Below, piece by piece: positions 7 through 6,107 of a stretch of 64,000 bases of DNA; position 1 is the first letter of the stretch; every line of letters starts with the position of its first letter. The position numbers and the translations under genes are program-made. The DNA comes from Hymenobacter nivis (GTDB lineage: Bacteria; Bacteroidota; Bacteroidia; Cytophagales; Hymenobacteraceae), in NCBI RefSeq assembly GCF_006439025.1, contig NZ_RCYZ01000002.1, positions 753 through 64,752 of the forward strand. The letters are read 5' to 3'. The notes beneath the pieces are model-generated. The model was not told the origin of the DNA and made no database searches. It worked only from the letters and a program-made list of their open reading frames with translations.

Positions 7-2223
7 CTACAGCAGCAGCAGGCCTTTTTCGCGCAGCAGTTGCCAGGCGGGGCTGATGAGGAAGGCCTCGAAGGAGCCGGCGGTGGCGGGGAAAGTGGCG
101 GCGGCTTCTTTGAGCAGCAGCTTGGTGTCGTAGTCGTGGGTTAGGCGCACGAGCAAGTCGTGGAGCCAGCGGCCGGCCGCCTCGGGCGCTTTCACCTCAA
201 AATCCTCAGCTTGCTCGTAGCAGGTGAGCACGGCGCGGGCGCCTTTTTTGCCGGCTTCCACGCGCAGCTCGGGGGCGTTGCCGAGCCAGAACAGGCGCTG
301 GTTTTGCTTGGCGAAGTCGGGCTTTTCGGGGGCTTGCAGGGCCTGGGCTACCAGTTGGCGCGGGGTGGTGGTTTTGGGCGTTTTGAAGTCGAACCAGAAG
401 CCCAGCGGCTCGTCGAGGGCCACGCCGTGGAGGTAGTTGTAGAGGCTTTTGGCCAGGCCGGGGCCGAAGGCTTCGTGGTCGGTGCCCAGCGGGTCGTCGT
501 GCCAGAGGTCGTTCCAGGCGAAGCCGGCGGGCTCGGGGCCCACGGCGGCTACTTGGTACTTGGCCGGGTTCTTCCCCACCGGCGAGTGGGCCGTCATCGA
601 GAAGCGGTGCCAGTAGCCGCTCTGCACCACGCCGGCCGCGAAAAGCTGCCGCACAACTTCCAAAGAATCAATGGTTTCTTGAGCGGTTTGGGTGGGGAAG
701 CCGTACATGAGGTAGGCGTGCACCATGATGCCGGCCTGGGTGAAACCGTCGGTGACGCGCGCCACCTGGGCGAGGGTAACGCCCTTCTCCATCAGCGCCA
801 GCAGGCGGTCGGAGGCCACCTCCAGGCCCCCACTGATGGCAATGCAGCCCGAGGCGGCCAGCAGCCGGCAGAGGTCGGGCGAGAAGGTTTTTTCGAACCG
901 GATGTTTCCCCACCACGTGATGGCCACGCGGCGCCGGAGCAGCTCCACGGCCAAGTCGCGCAGGGCCAGGGGCGGGGCGGCCTCGTCCACGAAGTGGAAG
1001 CCGGTTTGGCCGGTTTGGGCAATGATTTGTTCGATGCGGTCCACGAGCAAGGTGGCCGGCGCGGTTTCGTAGCGGCTGATGTAGTCGAGCGTGACGTCGC
1101 AAAACGAGCAGCGCTTCCAATAGCAGCCGTGGGCCACGGTGAGCTTGTTCCAGCGGCCGTCGCTCCAGAGGCGGTGCATGGGGTTGAGCACTTCGAGCAC
1201 CGAGAGGTAGTCGCGCAGCGGCAAATCGGAGTAGTCGGGCGTGCCCACTTCGGGGTGCGGCACGTCGGGGTGCGGGTGGTTGACGTACTGAATCTGCCCG
1301 GCTTCGTCGCGCAGAAACGTGCGTTGCAGCTCGGTTTGCGGAATTTTGCCGGCCCAATAATCGAACAAGCGCAGCCAGGGCCCCTCGCCGTCGTCGAGGG
1401 TGAGGTGGTCGATGTAGTCGAAAAAGCGCGGCTCCTTGATGGTGCGCAGCTCGGTGTTGGGGTAGCCGCCGCCCATGATGGTTTTCGTGTGCGGGCTGAC
1501 TTCCTTGATGCGGCGCGCCAGGCGCAGGGCCCCGTAGAGGTTGCCGGGGAAGGGCACGGTGAAGCCCACCACGTCGGGCTGCGTGCGGGCCAGCAGCGCA
1601 TCCAGTTCTTCCAACAGCAAGGTATCCAGCAGGTTGGCGGACGCTTGCAGGGCTTGGTGCAGCGGCTCGAAGCTGGTGGCGGAGAGGGCCAGCTTTTCGG
1701 CGTAGCGCGAGAAGCCGAAGTGGGGCCCCACGGTTTCCTTGATGAGGTCAGCCAAGTCCTCCAAGTACAGCGTGGCCAGGTGGCGGGCCTGGTCGGTGAG
1801 GCCCATGGTGCCGAAGGCGGTTTCGAGGTCGGCCACGTTGTCGAAGCGGCTGGCTTCGGGCAGGAAGCGGCCGTGGCAGATGCGCGGGGCCAGGGTCAGG
1901 TCCTTGTTCTGCAAGAAGCGCACGACCGGCGCGATGGTGGCCAGGTAGCGGTTTTGGAGCCGCAGCATGCGCTTGGCGTTGTCGCTGAGGTCAAAATCGC
2001 CGGCCTCAATTTCGGCAAACACGCGCTTGAGGCCGTCCACCGAAAACAGGCGCAGCACGAGCTGCAAGCCCAGGTCAGCCTGCGCCACGTCGTAGCCGCG
2101 GCCCTTCAAAAACCCCTTGATGTAAGCCGTGGCCGGGTACGGCGTATTGAGCTGCGTGAGCGGCGGGGTGATGAGCAGGATTTTGGGAGCAGCGAGCGAC
2201 ACGGTAGCCTTCAACCCGGCCAA
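7..2223 (-). CDS. B12-binding domain radical SAM protein
   Basis: Predicted cobalamin-binding radical SAM enzyme of about 738 residues; the substrate cannot be told from sequence. The N-terminus (KILLITPPLTQLNTPYPATA, about residues 14-33) and residues 215-260 (DVVGFTVPF, then GGGYPN) look like a B12-binding Rossmann fold. The radical SAM cluster motif is GCYWKRCSFC at about 366-375. Its cysteines 367, 372 and 375 are spaced CX4CX2C rather than the canonical CX3CX2C. Downstream come HFVDEA and the GGLEVASDR and YGFP strand motifs of the SAM barrel. The longest frame opens with TTG at 2223; a TTG nine bases in or a GTG at 2202 are equally possible, because the family normally starts just before the KILLITPP strand. 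The stop lies 7 bases from the window edge. No partner gene is recognisable nearby. Confidence in family is high. Confidence 0.9.
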   Translation of the reverse strand: MAGLKATVSLAAPKILLITPPLTQLNTPYPATAYIKGFLKGRGYDVAQADLGLQLVLRLFSVDGLKRVFAEIEAGDFDLSDNAKRMLRLQNRYLATIAPVVRFLQNKDLTLAPRICHGRFLPEASRFDNVADLETAFGTMGLTDQARHLATLYLEDLADLIKETVGPHFGFSRYAEKLALSATSFEPLHQALQASANLLDTLLLEELDALLARTQPDVVGFTVPFPGNLYGALRLARRIKEVSPHTKTIMGGGYPNTELRTIKEPRFFDYIDHLTLDDGEGPWLRLFDYWAGKIPQTELQRTFLRDEAGQIQYVNHPHPDVPHPEVGTPDYSDLPLRDYLSVLEVLNPMHRLWSDGRWNKLTVAHGCYWKRCSFCDVTLDYISRYETAPATLLVDRIEQIIAQTGQTGFHFVDEAAPPLALRDLAVELLRRRVAITWWGNIRFEKTFSPDLCRLLAASGCIAISGGLEVASDRLLALMEKGVTLAQVARVTDGFTQAGIMVHAYLMYGFPTQTAQETIDSLEVVRQLFAAGVVQSGYWHRFSMTAHSPVGKNPAKYQVAAVGPEPAGFAWNDLWHDDPLGTDHEAFGPGLAKSLYNYLHGVALDEPLGFWFDFKTPKTTTPRQLVAQALQAPEKPDFAKQNQRLFWLGNAPELRVEAGKKGARAVLTCYEQAEDFEVKAPEAAGRWLHDLLVRLTHDYDTKLLLKEAAATFPATAGSFEAFLISPAWQLLREKGLLLL

Positions 2224-2287: not shown

Positions 2288-3835
2288 CTACATCTTCATG
2301 CCGCCCCTTTTGCTGCCGCCCATCATGCTGGCCATGCTCATCCAGGGCGCGTTCAGGCGCACGTACACCGAGGCCGAGAGGGGTAGCTGGCCGTAGCCGG
2401 GGCCCCGGTAGGCCAAGCCGTACTGGGGGCCCTGCAAATCGGTGGGGATGAAGTAGCCCGTGAGCTGGCCGCCCACGTGCACCTCGGGGCCCCGGGGGCC
2501 ACCCAGGCTGGCGAGGCGGTAGCTGGCGCCCAGCGTGAGGGCGTGCACGTTGAAGACCTTGGCCACCAGCTGGTCGTTGGGCCCCGAGGCGTAGAAGTCC
2601 AGCTCCTCGCTGTCTTTCTGCACGAACTCGTAGCGGCCGTAGAACGTGGGGCGGCCCAGGGTGAGGTTGGTTTCGGCCAGCACGGCGTGTTCGGGGTGCG
2701 GGCCGTGGCCCTCGTTCATGCCCCAGACCAGGGCCGAGGTGATGTAGTGGCGGTCGGCGCCCAGGCTGTGGCTGTGCAAAATGCTGGCCGTGGTGCGGGT
2801 CACGTTTTCGTCGGGGTGCAGGTCTTCGGGGCTTTTGATGAAGGCGCGGCTCACTTGCAGAGCGAATTCGCGGCTGGGGTTCCAGTTCAGGCGCGCGGCC
2901 CAGGAGTCGGCGCGGGGCTTGTCGAAATCGAAGCGGTATTGGTCGGGCTCGCGGCCGGTGAAGTTGCTGCCTTCCAGCTTGAACTGCTTGTAGCGCACGC
3001 CCAGCGTGGCCACCCCGAAGGTGATGTGCGTGGCGTCGGTCCAGTGGTGGGAGAGGGGCGCGTCGGGGTTGGGCATGGCCGAAATGCGGTGCATGAACGC
3101 CACCGGCCCGATGGCCGGCTCGCCGGGGTAGCCCAGGTACAGGCTCACATCAACATCTTGATTAACAGCGTGCACGTAGCCCACGCTCAGGCCCGAAAAC
3201 AGGTCGTGCGGGTGCTGCTTGTCGATGAGCGGCTGGCCCTTGTAGCTCTCGCCGGTTTGGAACAGCAGCGGGTAGCCGCCGCGGGTTTCCGTCAGCGCAT
3301 CCAGCGACATCATCAGCGTGAGGTTGAGCAGGCCGTGGGCCCCCACGTTGCGCTGGGCCATGGCCATGCCCCAGTTGGGGCCGTCCACGGCGTTGGCGTG
3401 GCCGCGGCCGGTGGCGGGGTTTATGCCCCCGCCGCGGTGGTTGAAGTTTTGGCTGGTGTAGCGGCCGTAGGCCTGGCCGTGGGCCATCACCATCCAGGGG
3501 CCCTTGTGCGTCATCCACATGTACATGGGCGTGGCGTCGGGCTGCCAGCTGGTGGCCGAGCCGTTGCGGCTCATGGGCAGGTTGCGCGAGGTAGCGGCCG
3601 ACATGGTGTGGCCGCCGTCGGTGCCGCCCATGCCCATGTGGTTCATGCCCGCGTGGTCCATGCCGCTCATGGGTTCCGTCGGTTTTTTGGGGCGGGTGGT
3701 GTCGGCGGGCGCGGGCATGTTCATGCCCGGCATGGTGGTTTGGGCGCGGGCGGGGGTCCCCAGCAGGCCGGTGGCGAGCAGCAACAGGGCCGCGGCGCGG
3801 ACGGGAGCAGCAGCGAAAAGCGTCGAAGTATTCAT
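2288..3835 (-). CDS. Met/His-rich secreted, probable outer-membrane protein of a copper locus
   Basis: 515 residues with a signal peptide (about 1-32, ending TPARAQ). The mature N-terminus is rich in Met and His (MPGMNM, MSGMDHAGMNHMGMGG) and the C-terminus ends MASMMGGSKRGGMKM; both are the type of clusters that bind Cu(I). The middle has alternating aromatic/polar strands (for example YGRYEFVQKD, SLYLGYPGEPAIGP) that suggest an outer-membrane barrel. Related proteins occur beside copper genes in Bacteroidota, but I know of no assigned activity. It is divergent from the Cys-rich copper-storage protein at 4037 and shares a 200-bp spacer with it. A role in copper handling at the cell surface is inferred from composition and context; transport of another solute is possible. 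Confidence 0.85.
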   Translation of the reverse strand: MNTSTLFAAAPVRAAALLLLATGLLGTPARAQTTMPGMNMPAPADTTRPKKPTEPMSGMDHAGMNHMGMGGTDGGHTMSAATSRNLPMSRNGSATSWQPDATPMYMWMTHKGPWMVMAHGQAYGRYTSQNFNHRGGGINPATGRGHANAVDGPNWGMAMAQRNVGAHGLLNLTLMMSLDALTETRGGYPLLFQTGESYKGQPLIDKQHPHDLFSGLSVGYVHAVNQDVDVSLYLGYPGEPAIGPVAFMHRISAMPNPDAPLSHHWTDATHITFGVATLGVRYKQFKLEGSNFTGREPDQYRFDFDKPRADSWAARLNWNPSREFALQVSRAFIKSPEDLHPDENVTRTTASILHSHSLGADRHYITSALVWGMNEGHGPHPEHAVLAETNLTLGRPTFYGRYEFVQKDSEELDFYASGPNDQLVAKVFNVHALTLGASYRLASLGGPRGPEVHVGGQLTGYFIPTDLQGPQYGLAYRGPGYGQLPLSASVYVRLNAPWMSMASMMGGSKRGGMKM

Positions 3836-3842
3836 GGCAGTA

Positions 3843-3854
3843 GAACGCCCGTTC
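3843..3854. promoter_or_regulatory. short dyad GAACG-CC-CGTTC in divergent copper-locus spacer
   Basis: A 5-bp inverted repeat lies 7 bases upstream of the Met/His-rich gene start, within the 3836-4036 spacer shared with the copper-storage gene. It is a possible regulator site for the HMA-AraC protein encoded at 4476. The dyad is short and could occur by chance in high-GC DNA. Confidence 0.2.
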
Positions 3855-4036
3855 TCCTCACCCGGTTTTCACGCGGGCCAACACAATTCGGCTTGGGGCC
3901 CTCCACGATTTTGGGGCCCGCCCGAATGGTGTTGGGTTTGGGCCAAATGCTGCACGGCCGCGGCGGCCGCGGCCCCGTAAACCAGCCTAGGTGGTACCCC
4001 TCCGCTTTTTGTTCAATCCTTTCTCATCCCCCGCCC

Positions 4037-4378
4037 ATGGCTATTTCCACTGCCCCCCGCCCCGCCCACCAAGATGTGCTCGATGCCCTCGCCCGCTGCG
4101 TAGCGGCCTGTGAGCACTGCGCCACCGCCTGCCTCGGCGAGGACAACATCCAGATGATGGTGCCCTGCATCCGCCTCGACCGCGACTGCGCCGACATCTG
4201 CCGCCTCACCGCCGCCTTCATCGCCCGCGGCTCCGACCACGCCAAGCACGTGCTTAAGGAGTGCATCGAAATTTGCCAGAAGTGCCACGATGAGTGCGCC
4301 CAGCACGAGCACCAGCACTGCCAGGAATGCGCCGCCGCCTGCAAAGCCTGCCTGGAAGCCTGCAAATCGTATAGCTAG
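4037..4378 (+). CDS. Cys-rich four-helix-bundle copper storage protein (Csp-like, DUF326)
   Basis: 113 residues with 16 cysteines, mostly in CxxxC and CxxC spacing along predicted helices (ARCVAACEHCATAC, CIRLDRDCADIC, KECIEICQKCHDEC, HCQECAAACKACLEAC). This pattern is that of the Csp family, in which a four-helix bundle is lined with Cys that bind many Cu(I) ions. There is no obvious signal peptide, so it is probably cytosolic like Csp3. The ATG at 4037 is chosen because the preceding in-frame stretch is a spacer of unrelated composition and DUF326 proteins start close to the first helix. It is divergent from the Met/His-rich gene and convergent with the HMA-AraC regulator, from which a hairpin terminator separates it. 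Regulation by that neighbour is an inference. Confidence 0.9.
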   Translation: MAISTAPRPAHQDVLDALARCVAACEHCATACLGEDNIQMMVPCIRLDRDCADICRLTAAFIARGSDHAKHVLKECIEICQKCHDECAQHEHQHCQECAAACKACLEACKSYS

Positions 4379-4417
4379 CCCGCCGGGCTTCGTCGGTCGC
4401 GCTACCGATTTCAAGCA

Positions 4418-4455
4418 AAAAAGGGGCCCTTACCAATCGGTAGGGGCCCCTTTTT
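4418..4455. terminator. bidirectional hairpin terminator
   Basis: A 17-bp inverted repeat with one mismatch (AAAAAGGGGCCCTTACC, loop AATC, then its complement ending in TTTTT). It lies between the convergent copper-storage gene (+) and the HMA-AraC gene (-), and the A- and T-runs allow it to serve both. Confidence 0.85.
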
Positions 4456-4475
4456 ATAAGTATAGCACTGACGCC

Positions 4476-5045
4476 TTACAGCGAGTCGAGCGAGAGGCGG
4501 GCGGGCAGCGACTGGCGGCGGAATTCGCTCACCGAGTGGCCCGTTACTTGGCGGAACTGGTTGCTCAGGTGCTGGCCCGAGCTGTAGCGCATCTGGTCGG
4601 CAATCTGGTTCAGGGTCAGTTCGCCGTAGCTGAGCAGCTCCTTCACGTGCTCAATTTTGAGGCGGATGAGGTACTTCTCGATGGTGAGGTGGGCGGTGCG
4701 CGAAAACACCTTGCTCAGGTGCGAGTAGGTGGCGGCCAGGCGCTCGGTGAGGAAGGCCGAGGTGGTGAGCGGCGAGCGGGCCGTGCGCAGGTGGTCGAGG
4801 TAGTCGGCGAGCAGGGTCTTGATTTGCTCGGTGAGCTGCTCGGCGCGGCCGCGCAGCAGCTCAAAGCCGGCGGCTTCGAGCAGCGGGGCCACGGTTTCGG
4901 GGTCCACGGGGGTGGTGGCGTCGAGCTCGGCGGTGCCCAGCGTTACGGCCTTGGTCTTGTAACCGGCACGCTCCAGCAGGGTGTGCACAGCTTCAACGCA
5001 ACGCGGGCACACCATGTTTTTGATGTATAGCAGGTTCGTGGACAT
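4476..5045 (-). CDS. AraC-family regulator with N-terminal HMA-like metal-binding domain
   Basis: 189 residues. Residues 1-68 resemble a heavy-metal-associated (HMA) domain: a first strand LLYIKNMVCPRC, with the MxCxxC-type ligands C13 and C16, then VEAVHTLLERAGY and a second half ending LLEAAGFELL. Residues about 90-180 form an AraC helix-turn-helix pair; the signature YSSGQHLSNQFRQVTGHS lies at 154-171. The usual sugar-binding cupin is missing, so the metal site is the likely sensor. The ATG at 5045 is preferred because a longer in-frame extension to 5174 is Pro/Arg-rich and precedes the HMA strand. It starts 4 bases after the stop of the small membrane gene at 5050, so the two are probably cotranscribed. 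Copper sensing is inferred from the domain and the neighbouring Csp protein. Confidence 0.88.
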   Translation of the reverse strand: MSTNLLYIKNMVCPRCVEAVHTLLERAGYKTKAVTLGTAELDATTPVDPETVAPLLEAAGFELLRGRAEQLTEQIKTLLADYLDHLRTARSPLTTSAFLTERLAATYSHLSKVFSRTAHLTIEKYLIRLKIEHVKELLSYGELTLNQIADQMRYSSGQHLSNQFRQVTGHSVSEFRRQSLPARLSLDSL

Positions 5046-5049
5046 ATAA

Positions 5050-5412
5050 CTAGCGAGTTGAAGACCGCCCTGCGGCGGCGGTTGAAGATGCAGAACGAAC
5101 AGGGCCCCGGGCCGGGGCTGGGCGGGGCCGCCGGGCCGCTGGGGCAGGCGAAGCCGCCGCCCAGCCCCGGCCAAACCAATGCTCGGTGGCCCAGCCTACA
5201 AACGGTACCACGGCCAGAAAGGTAACCGCCAGGAGCCAGAAAAAGATGAAGAATGCCGGAGCCAGCCGCCCAAAAAAATGCCCATCGGCCCCGAACACGT
5301 AGCCTATCAGCGCCAGGGCCAGCACGAGGCTGGCGGCGGCCAGCGCACCCACCCGCCGCCACGGCCCGGGGGCCAGGAAACGGGCAAAGCGCAGGCGCGG
5401 GAGCTGGGGCAT
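5050..5412 (-). CDS. small hypothetical membrane protein
   Basis: 120 residues. Two hydrophobic stretches, about residues 22-42 (VGALAAASLVLALALIGYVF) and 50-75 (APAFFIFFWLLAVTFLAVVP), predict an integral inner-membrane protein. The last 35 residues are Pro/Arg/Ala-rich and look disordered. I do not recognise a family. The stop is 4 bases upstream of the HMA-AraC start, so it may be the first gene of a two-gene operon. The membrane segments make coding likely, but the composition of the tail leaves room for a shorter or different product. Confidence 0.55.
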   Translation of the reverse strand: MPQLPRLRFARFLAPGPWRRVGALAAASLVLALALIGYVFGADGHFFGRLAPAFFIFFWLLAVTFLAVVPFVGWATEHWFGRGWAAASPAPAARRPRPAPARGPVRSASSTAAAGRSSTR

Positions 5413-5510: not shown

Positions 5511-6107
5511 CTACGCCAGCACCGCCAGCAGCTCGCGCTGCAACGATTGGCCCTGGTCGTTGGTGTACCACTCGTTCATCTGGCGCACGATGGCGGCGGT
5601 GTGCTGCTCGGGGTCGGTGTGCAGGCGGTGGGCCAGCTCCTGGGCTTCGGCGGGGCGGGGGCCCCACTCGGCCACGGTGGCGCCGGTGGCCGCGTCCTGC
5701 ATCACCAGCTTGGGGATGCTGTTTTTGCCGTTGGTTTGGTGGGCGGCCATAAAGCCGGGGTGCTCGGAGCGCAGCATCACGTGCAGGGCCACGCGGCCGC
5801 CGCTGCCCTCGGCCAGGTGGGCCAGCAGGGGCAGCTCGTGGGCGGTGTCGCCGCACCAGGCCTCGGCCAGCACCAGCCAGCGCTGGGGGGCGTCGAGGTG
5901 GCGCAGGCGGTCCACCAGCGCGGGCAGCAGGGGCAGGGCGTAGGCCCGGTCGAGGTGCTGCTGGTTTTGCTCGGTGAAGCGCACCAGGGCGGGGCCCTGG
6001 TCGGGGCCGGTGGTGCGGTGCTCGGCGGCCAGCGTGCCCACCAGGGCCCGGAACTCGGCGTAAGTGTAAGCGGGGGCCGGCAGGGCGGCAGCAGCAGAAG
6101 CGGACAT
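5511..6107 (-). CDS. thioredoxin-fold protein with single active-site cysteine (AWCGDT)
   Basis: 198 residues of thioredoxin fold. The motif LVLAEAWCGDTAHELP puts one cysteine (C85) where thioredoxins have CxxC, giving CGDT. The cis-proline region is NSIPKLVMQD, followed by a strand and helix in the expected order. No signal peptide, so probably cytoplasmic. This family of single-Cys 'thioredoxin family proteins' is common in Bacteroidota and its reaction is not established; a classical disulfide reductase is unlikely without the second cysteine. The ATG at 6107 fits the family length. It is divergent from the lipoprotein genes at 6249 and 6590. Confidence 0.85.
   Translation of the reverse strand: MSASAAAALPAPAYTYAEFRALVGTLAAEHRTTGPDQGPALVRFTEQNQQHLDRAYALPLLPALVDRLRHLDAPQRWLVLAEAWCGDTAHELPLLAHLAEGSGGRVALHVMLRSEHPGFMAAHQTNGKNSIPKLVMQDAATGATVAEWGPRPAEAQELAHRLHTDPEQHTAAIVRQMNEWYTNDQGQSLQRELLAVLA

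Follow-up and report, generated by a model that had tools for sequence, protein, structure and literature searches.

The window analysed here, a 64,000-nt stretch of a 5.44-Mb Hymenobacter genome (C12:753-64752), encodes a 189-residue regulator (REG; 4476-5045, minus strand) that appears to join an HMA-like domain to an AraC-type DNA-binding domain. Because of these domains, the linkage of the gene to Cu(I)-ATPases and an operator that goes with the regulator across genomes, REG is very probably a cytosolic Cu(I)-responsive transcriptional activator, a reading in which we infer the metal, DNA-binding and expression steps. AraC proteins and HMA domains are each familiar; it is their combination into a copper sensor that appears to be new. 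REG lies close to csp (4037-4378, plus strand), encoding a copper-storage protein, and omp (2288-3835, minus strand), encoding a secreted, probably outer-membrane protein, and an operator of the same form precedes csp, the copper ATPase gene copA and, more weakly, omp.

The sensor and DNA-binding domains of REG

The DNA-binding domain of REG (residues 99-178; 4512-4751, minus strand) was recognized by HTH_18 (E 2.3e-15) and HTH_AraC (E 1.2e-7), both above their cut-offs, and AraC (2k9s) was among its best structure matches. The only regulator-family models that matched REG were those of the AraC family, whose C-terminal double helix-turn-helix it shares, and a MerR-type helix-turn-helix of the CueR kind was not found. 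The AlphaFold2 model (pLDDT 84) has the order strand-helix-strand-strand-helix, followed by a linker helix (residues 67-88; 4782-4847, minus strand) and then the AraC domain. In a Foldseek search with this model AraC domains ranked first, while CopZ, Atx1-type and NmerA domains were found at lower ranks, with probabilities of 0.97-0.99 but E-values of 0.18-0.39.

Residues 5-63 (4857-5033, minus strand) were matched by the metal-binding domains of ATP7B (2ew9) at E 1.7e-6, using a profile of 32 Hymenobacter sequences, and the same profile matched CopZ at E 0.007-0.009. REG has only two Cys residues, Cys13 and Cys16 (CxxC at 4998-5009, minus strand), both within MVCPRC. The motif NMVCxRC was conserved in 110 of 110 aligned homologues, a biased set in that 80 came from a search using YIKNMVCP among six peptide patterns; the remaining 30 were the best phylum matches, four of them from Hymenobacter, the window's REG included. 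The fold order, a CxxC after the first strand and likeness to known HMA proteins were all found in REG. Because of the profile match, the AlphaFold2 model and the invariant NMVCxRC, the assignment of the N-terminus as an HMA-like domain with a putative, presumably metal-binding, site is supported. An AraC regulator fused to an HMA domain, as proposed in a sequence-only reading of the window, is thus borne out by the HTH_18 match and the HMA-like fold, the latter domain being undetected by Pfam.

Copper-gene linkage and the operator

REG matches at E<=1e-3, a count that includes matches to the AraC domain alone, were present in 222 of 395 sampled genomes. Sixty divergent loci, none longer than 20 kb, were collected, of which 58, from 52 genomes, gave a REG frame (L148 and L171, which gave none, were dropped). 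A P-type ATPase gene was located within three genes of REG in 39 of these 58 loci, the opposite of the outcome that the sequence-only reading named as refuting it, namely HMA-AraC homologues without any copper genes as neighbours. CPC-LGLA, YN and MxxSS, the motifs of Cu(I)-type ATPases, were found in 37 of the 40 neighbouring ATPases, and 32 of the 40 were encoded one or two genes downstream of REG on the same strand. A small HMA chaperone gene was near REG in 14 of 58 loci, and under a strict rule 40 of 58 had a copper gene within three genes. REG is a widespread family and not a local oddity. It was found in all 101 sampled Hymenobacter genomes, 99 of which have CopA; the window's own genome has one REG and one CopA, and in a number of other species a second REG (~45% identity) sits beside a second copA (e.g., G433:C7, G478:C16 and, twice, G397:C4).

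REG homologues were also found on 30 plasmid records. Among six that were inspected, four carry an ATPase plus a cupredoxin, a four-helix copper protein or a multicopper oxidase; the other two have a "bilirubin oxidase" two genes upstream and an adjoining "Cu/Zn efflux transporter", respectively. On plasmid Paks1 of Pontibacter akesuensis (L298:5000-11610), REG, CopA, an omp homologue and csp form one cluster, and a 21-bp dyad (13/14) precedes the REG operon, an arrangement that suggests a mobile version of the regulon.

The proposed operator consists of two direct half-sites, about AATNNTRYA, placed 21-22 bp apart in an AraC-like arrangement. The csp/omp intergenic region contains an inverted repeat (CCAACACAATTCGG / CCGAATGGTGTTGG), and exact matches to the 14-mer CCGAATNGTGTTGG occur at three places in the genome: at csp, at omp and just upstream of copA. 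The copA match, 205 kb away, was not used in defining the 14-mer. At up to one mismatch it has ten matches in all, versus seven for the reversed control. Each CCGAATNGTGTTGG site sits within a direct repeat. That of csp (3925-3957, plus strand) has half-sites at 3925-3935 and 3946-3957, 21 bp apart, while that of omp (3878-3910, minus strand) has a poor upstream (3900-3910) and a good downstream (3878-3888) half-site, 22 bp apart. Genome-wide, the strict 21-bp dyad was found twice exactly (before csp and copA) and 11 times with one mismatch, versus four in all for the reversed control; the 22-bp dyad gave no exact and five one-mismatch sites, versus one. At L223:1501-1817 (C1:850235, own genome), a one-mismatch operator lies 110 bp before the gene of a 68-residue HMA protein.

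Thirty Hymenobacter copA loci, 11 with REG in the flank, were fetched, and one was left out as its upstream region was too short. Unseeded half-site pairs in the 29 upstream regions numbered 18 at 21 bp and 12 at 22 bp, versus 0.0 in Markov shuffles. A further class of 13 pairs at 39-40 bp perhaps represents a third half-site. A two-block matrix was trained on these copA promoters alone and applied at the 99% null threshold; it was seeded with 21/22-bp pairs, so that its own spacing count is partly built in. The matrix found 28 of the 29 copA sites (27 in gene orientation) and 26 of 28 csp sites (25 in gene orientation), as well as sites in 25 of 36 omp upstream regions, 15 of which were the divergent csp site. 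Among the controls, hits were obtained for none of 24 TRX (thioredoxin-like) genes and for one of 80 genes of the small membrane protein MEM; of 65 radical SAM genes eight gave hits, all eight on the opposite strand. In the window, csp scored 21.6, omp 9.8 (99% null threshold 3.9) and MEM -11.5. Autoregulation was rejected on the basis of this absence of a dyad before MEM-REG and of the low number elsewhere in the phylum, where 3 of 64 REG genes had a dyad at 13/14 or better.

Across the phylum, two copies of AATNNTRYA at spacings of 14-30 bp were sought in a strict scan of the 58 loci, covering 1014 genes of at least 65 aa with 150 bp of upstream sequence within the locus. Perfect 21-bp pairs were found before 17 of 74 copper genes, one of 64 REG genes and two of 876 others; at all other spacings together, perfect pairs preceded no copper gene, no REG gene and one other gene. 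At 13/14 or better, 21-bp pairs preceded 30 of 74 copper genes versus six of 876 others (P 1e-30), with 0-3 copper genes at each other spacing, and these dyads span nine of the 15 sampled families. The six other genes include those of a multicopper oxidase and a small Cys-rich protein. The half-site pattern was written after the Hymenobacter and phylum sites had been seen, and the guard against this lies in the spacing controls and in separate genomes for co-occurrence. An earlier phylum count of eight 21-bp pairs corresponds to five distinct places, the pattern being overlapping, and a loose phylum score (threshold 13) was dropped, as ~70-76% of 1044 genes passed it at every spacing, with its ranking kept as a lead. 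A perfect 21-bp dyad also lies 70 bp upstream of L173 ORF 17 (128 aa, small, secreted-looking and Cys-containing), a possible further regulon member.

For 31 sites (before 30 copper genes and one other gene, with three REG sites left out), the -7 box of Bacteroidota, TANNTTTG, was placed relative to the operator: in 24 of them it starts 31 or 32 nt past the first position of the downstream half-site, which therefore overlaps -33.

For co-occurrence, 60 REG-positive genomes from outside the first sample were compared with 60 "regulator-negative" ones (20 drawn from the 173 genomes that gave no match and 40 whose matches were all weak, at E 1e-7 or worse), a label that may miss some regulators, as many genomes were scored on their best eight candidates only. 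CopA was present in 58 and 50 of them, respectively, and the 600 bp upstream of the best 30 loci of each group were compared. A 21-bp dyad at 13/14 or better preceded copA in 15 of 30 REG-positive loci (nine perfect) and in none of the 30 negative ones, with a P of 5.8e-6 that is too kind, since the two sets of genomes are not alike in lineage or base composition. Dyads at other spacings numbered 0-1 in the negative and 0-2 in the positive group. Four dyads precede copA without REG in the flank (L270, L272, L275, L279). An operator of the form known for AraC, two direct half-sites ~21 bp apart, goes with the presence of REG, which presumably binds it.

Several observations weigh against copper activation through this operator. 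No match to PF00403 (HMA) was obtained for REG or for its 32 Hymenobacter homologues at E<=0.1. Under the strict rule, 18 of 58 loci lack a copper gene within three genes of REG; in three of these 18 an HMA-motif gene does lie that close, and L160 has an ATPase that fails the strict motif. In half of the REG-positive copA loci (15 of 30) no dyad reached 13/14, and the difference between the two groups of genomes has been mentioned above. The omp dyad is too weak for either genome-wide list, and an omp-oriented best match was found in only 10 of 36 omp upstream regions. By eye, no clear -7 box was seen after the operators of copA, csp and omp in the window's own genome.

Genes of the locus

From left to right, the genes are a B12-binding radical SAM protein (7-2223, minus strand), omp, csp, REG, MEM (5050-5412, minus strand) and TRX (5511-6107, minus strand). 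The csp, omp, REG and MEM genes are all open reading frames placed as in the sequence-only reading, which was also right that a small membrane protein gene (MEM, 120 aa) lies just upstream of the regulator, on the same strand and ending 4 bp before it. Judged by the identity of REG, Hymenobacter coccineus (97%), H. caeli (95%) and a Hymenobacter MAG (metagenome-assembled genome; 94%) are the closest of the relatives found. Among 80 Hymenobacter loci, MEM directly precedes REG in 80, while radical SAM is found in 65, omp in 36 and csp in 28. Because of these frequencies of MEM, omp and csp, REG-MEM is the core of the locus, and csp and omp are optional.

The picture of a compact copper locus has to be modified accordingly. 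The packing into 3 kb is present in the window but is not conserved; csp and, more weakly, omp are tied to copA by a common operator, but the regulon reaches beyond the locus. Linkage of HMA-AraC and DUF326 genes in related Hymenobacter genomes takes the form of csp as an optional partner. As for MEM, it adjoins REG in all 80 Hymenobacter loci and has neither an operator nor conserved metal ligands.

The csp product was described as a Cys-rich Csp-type storage protein, which agrees with its 113 aa, 16 Cys and DUF326 match (E 5.5e-11). Its closest solved structure is Csp3 (5fig, profile match, E 1.7e-18), and it has the sequence of a Cys-lined four-helix bundle with an N-terminus that, by eye, is not signal-like, as in the cytosolic Csp3 proteins; against the Csp1-family model it scored 44.4 of 100 bits, under the cut-off. 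By sequence it is an ordinary Csp3 member, but unlike known Csp3 proteins it appears under an HMA-AraC operator. Between the convergent csp and REG genes there is a near-perfect GGGGCCC hairpin (4418-4455; -31.5 kcal/mol, z -5.7) with A and T runs on its flanks, likely a two-way terminator.

The omp product (515 aa) likewise answers to its description as a Met/His-rich secreted protein, with 29 Met, 24 His and, by eye, a signal-like N-terminus. Its first 110 residues contain 14 Met and 4 His, and the whole protein has no Cys. It matched no Pfam or NCBIfam family, including known families of the CopB/PcoB type, and no PDB sequence, and 21 homologues gave only weak barrel matches (best E 0.017). 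Its model is rich in beta-strands but too poor for a fold search (pLDDT 53), and the protein is probably an outer-membrane beta-barrel with a Met/His-rich N-terminal arm. Homologues occur in plasmid copper islands. Two Sphingobium plasmids (Alphaproteobacteria; L299, L300), which are absent from the 30 records with REG, carry omp homologues of ~44% identity near genes for a MerR regulator, a glutaredoxin and DUF305, and one of the two also has a P-type ATPase nearby. These sequences suggest an unnamed copper-associated outer-membrane family.

For the radical SAM protein, the nearest NCBIfam model was TIGR03975 (RiPP maturation rSAM), with a score far under the cut-off.

Mechanism, alternatives and known copper sensors

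In the proposed mechanism, Cu(I) would load Cys13/Cys16 of REG, which, as a dimer, would occupy both operator half-sites. The downstream half-site, which lies over -33 wherever a -7 box can be recognised, would place REG to recruit RNA polymerase (class II activation), and the output would be CopA for export, Csp3 for cytosolic storage, the 68-residue HMA chaperone and the outer-membrane protein with its Met/His-rich arm.

The degrees of confidence given to this mechanism and to its alternatives overlap and need not sum to one. A half-site over -33 would suit a repressor too, and REG might bind the same operator as such and be released by Cu(I), as are CsoR and CopY; this is unlikely, given that a fixed spacing to the -7 box, together with an AraC-type domain, agrees with class II activators in the AraC family, whose members mostly activate. 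The signal itself might be the thiol redox state or a soft metal other than copper (Ag, Hg, Zn, Cd), with the copper genes responding only in part. CxxC sites bind several soft metals, the mercury domain NmerA is among the structure matches of REG and one plasmid copy adjoins the "Cu/Zn efflux transporter", but the Cu(I)-type motifs in 37 of 40 neighbouring ATPases and partners such as Csp3, multicopper oxidase and cupredoxin make this a rather improbable explanation.

The remaining two alternatives concern the operator. The own genome has five further AraC-type matches, any of which might bind the dyad with REG as a mere neighbour, binding by REG being itself a matter of inference. Yet the dyad goes with REG across genomes, REG is single in its own genome, and the other five matches start at residue 65 or later, none reaching the N-terminal domain of REG, so that we regard this possibility as very unlikely. 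That the operator has no function and reflects chance or AT-richness is hardly credible: the half-site is short and AT-rich and its pattern was written after the sites were seen, but among spacings of 14-30 bp perfect pairs at copper genes occur at 21 bp only, shuffled sequences give none, and the operator also stands out in the GC-rich Hymenobacter.

Bacteria usually sense copper through CueR, CsoR, CopY or two-component systems. In the genome that contains the window, the CsoR family gave no match, CopY/BlaI-type repressors were not searched for, and no CueR was found above the cut-off, the one weak match reaching 22 of 147 bits. In its proposed role REG resembles CueR, which senses Cu(I) in the cytosol and switches on copA and chaperone genes, but CueR is a MerR-family protein acting on a spacer palindrome, whereas REG has an unrelated DNA-binding family and sensor and a direct repeat. 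CsoR and CopY also control copA and copZ genes, but as repressors of folds unrelated to REG. CopR of Pyrococcus furiosus, an archaeal transcription regulator, has reportedly been described as a putative copper-sensing metalloregulator (PMC7830388). With AraC, SoxS and YesN-type proteins, REG shares its helix-turn-helix domain by sequence and structure match, and the I1-I2 sites of AraC are direct repeats 21 bp apart over -35, much like the REG operator over -33; the sensor of AraC-family proteins, however, is a sugar-binding cupin or a receiver domain, in place of which REG has its HMA-like domain. That domain shares its fold order and MxCxxC-type motif with the HMA domains of CopZ and P1B-ATPases, but in REG it is fused to a DNA-binding domain and lies below Pfam detection.

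Part of the report on copper resistance in the Bacteroidete Bizionia argentinensis describes MerR and CopY-like candidates without copper sites and names two ArsR/SmtB proteins as possible cytoplasmic regulators, with AraC unmentioned in that part (PMC11213822). No description of an HMA-AraC copper regulator was found in an open-access library, a scope too narrow to prove that none is in print.

If REG activates copper genes, a function could be assigned to a protein whose annotation says no more than "AraC family transcriptional regulator", and Bacteroidota would gain a compact copper-responsive promoter. The proposal names a concrete protein, operator and regulon. We consider it likely that HMA-AraC proteins generally serve as the cytosolic Cu(I) sensor in much of Bacteroidota and form a separate class of copper regulator, with an AraC activator driven by a chaperone-type HMA domain, holding a phylum-wide regulon (copA and copZ; in places csp, omp and multicopper oxidase) instead of CueR, CsoR or CopY, and that they may get copper straight from CopZ by HMA-to-HMA exchange. 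In that case, REG may serve much of the phylum as internal copper sensor.

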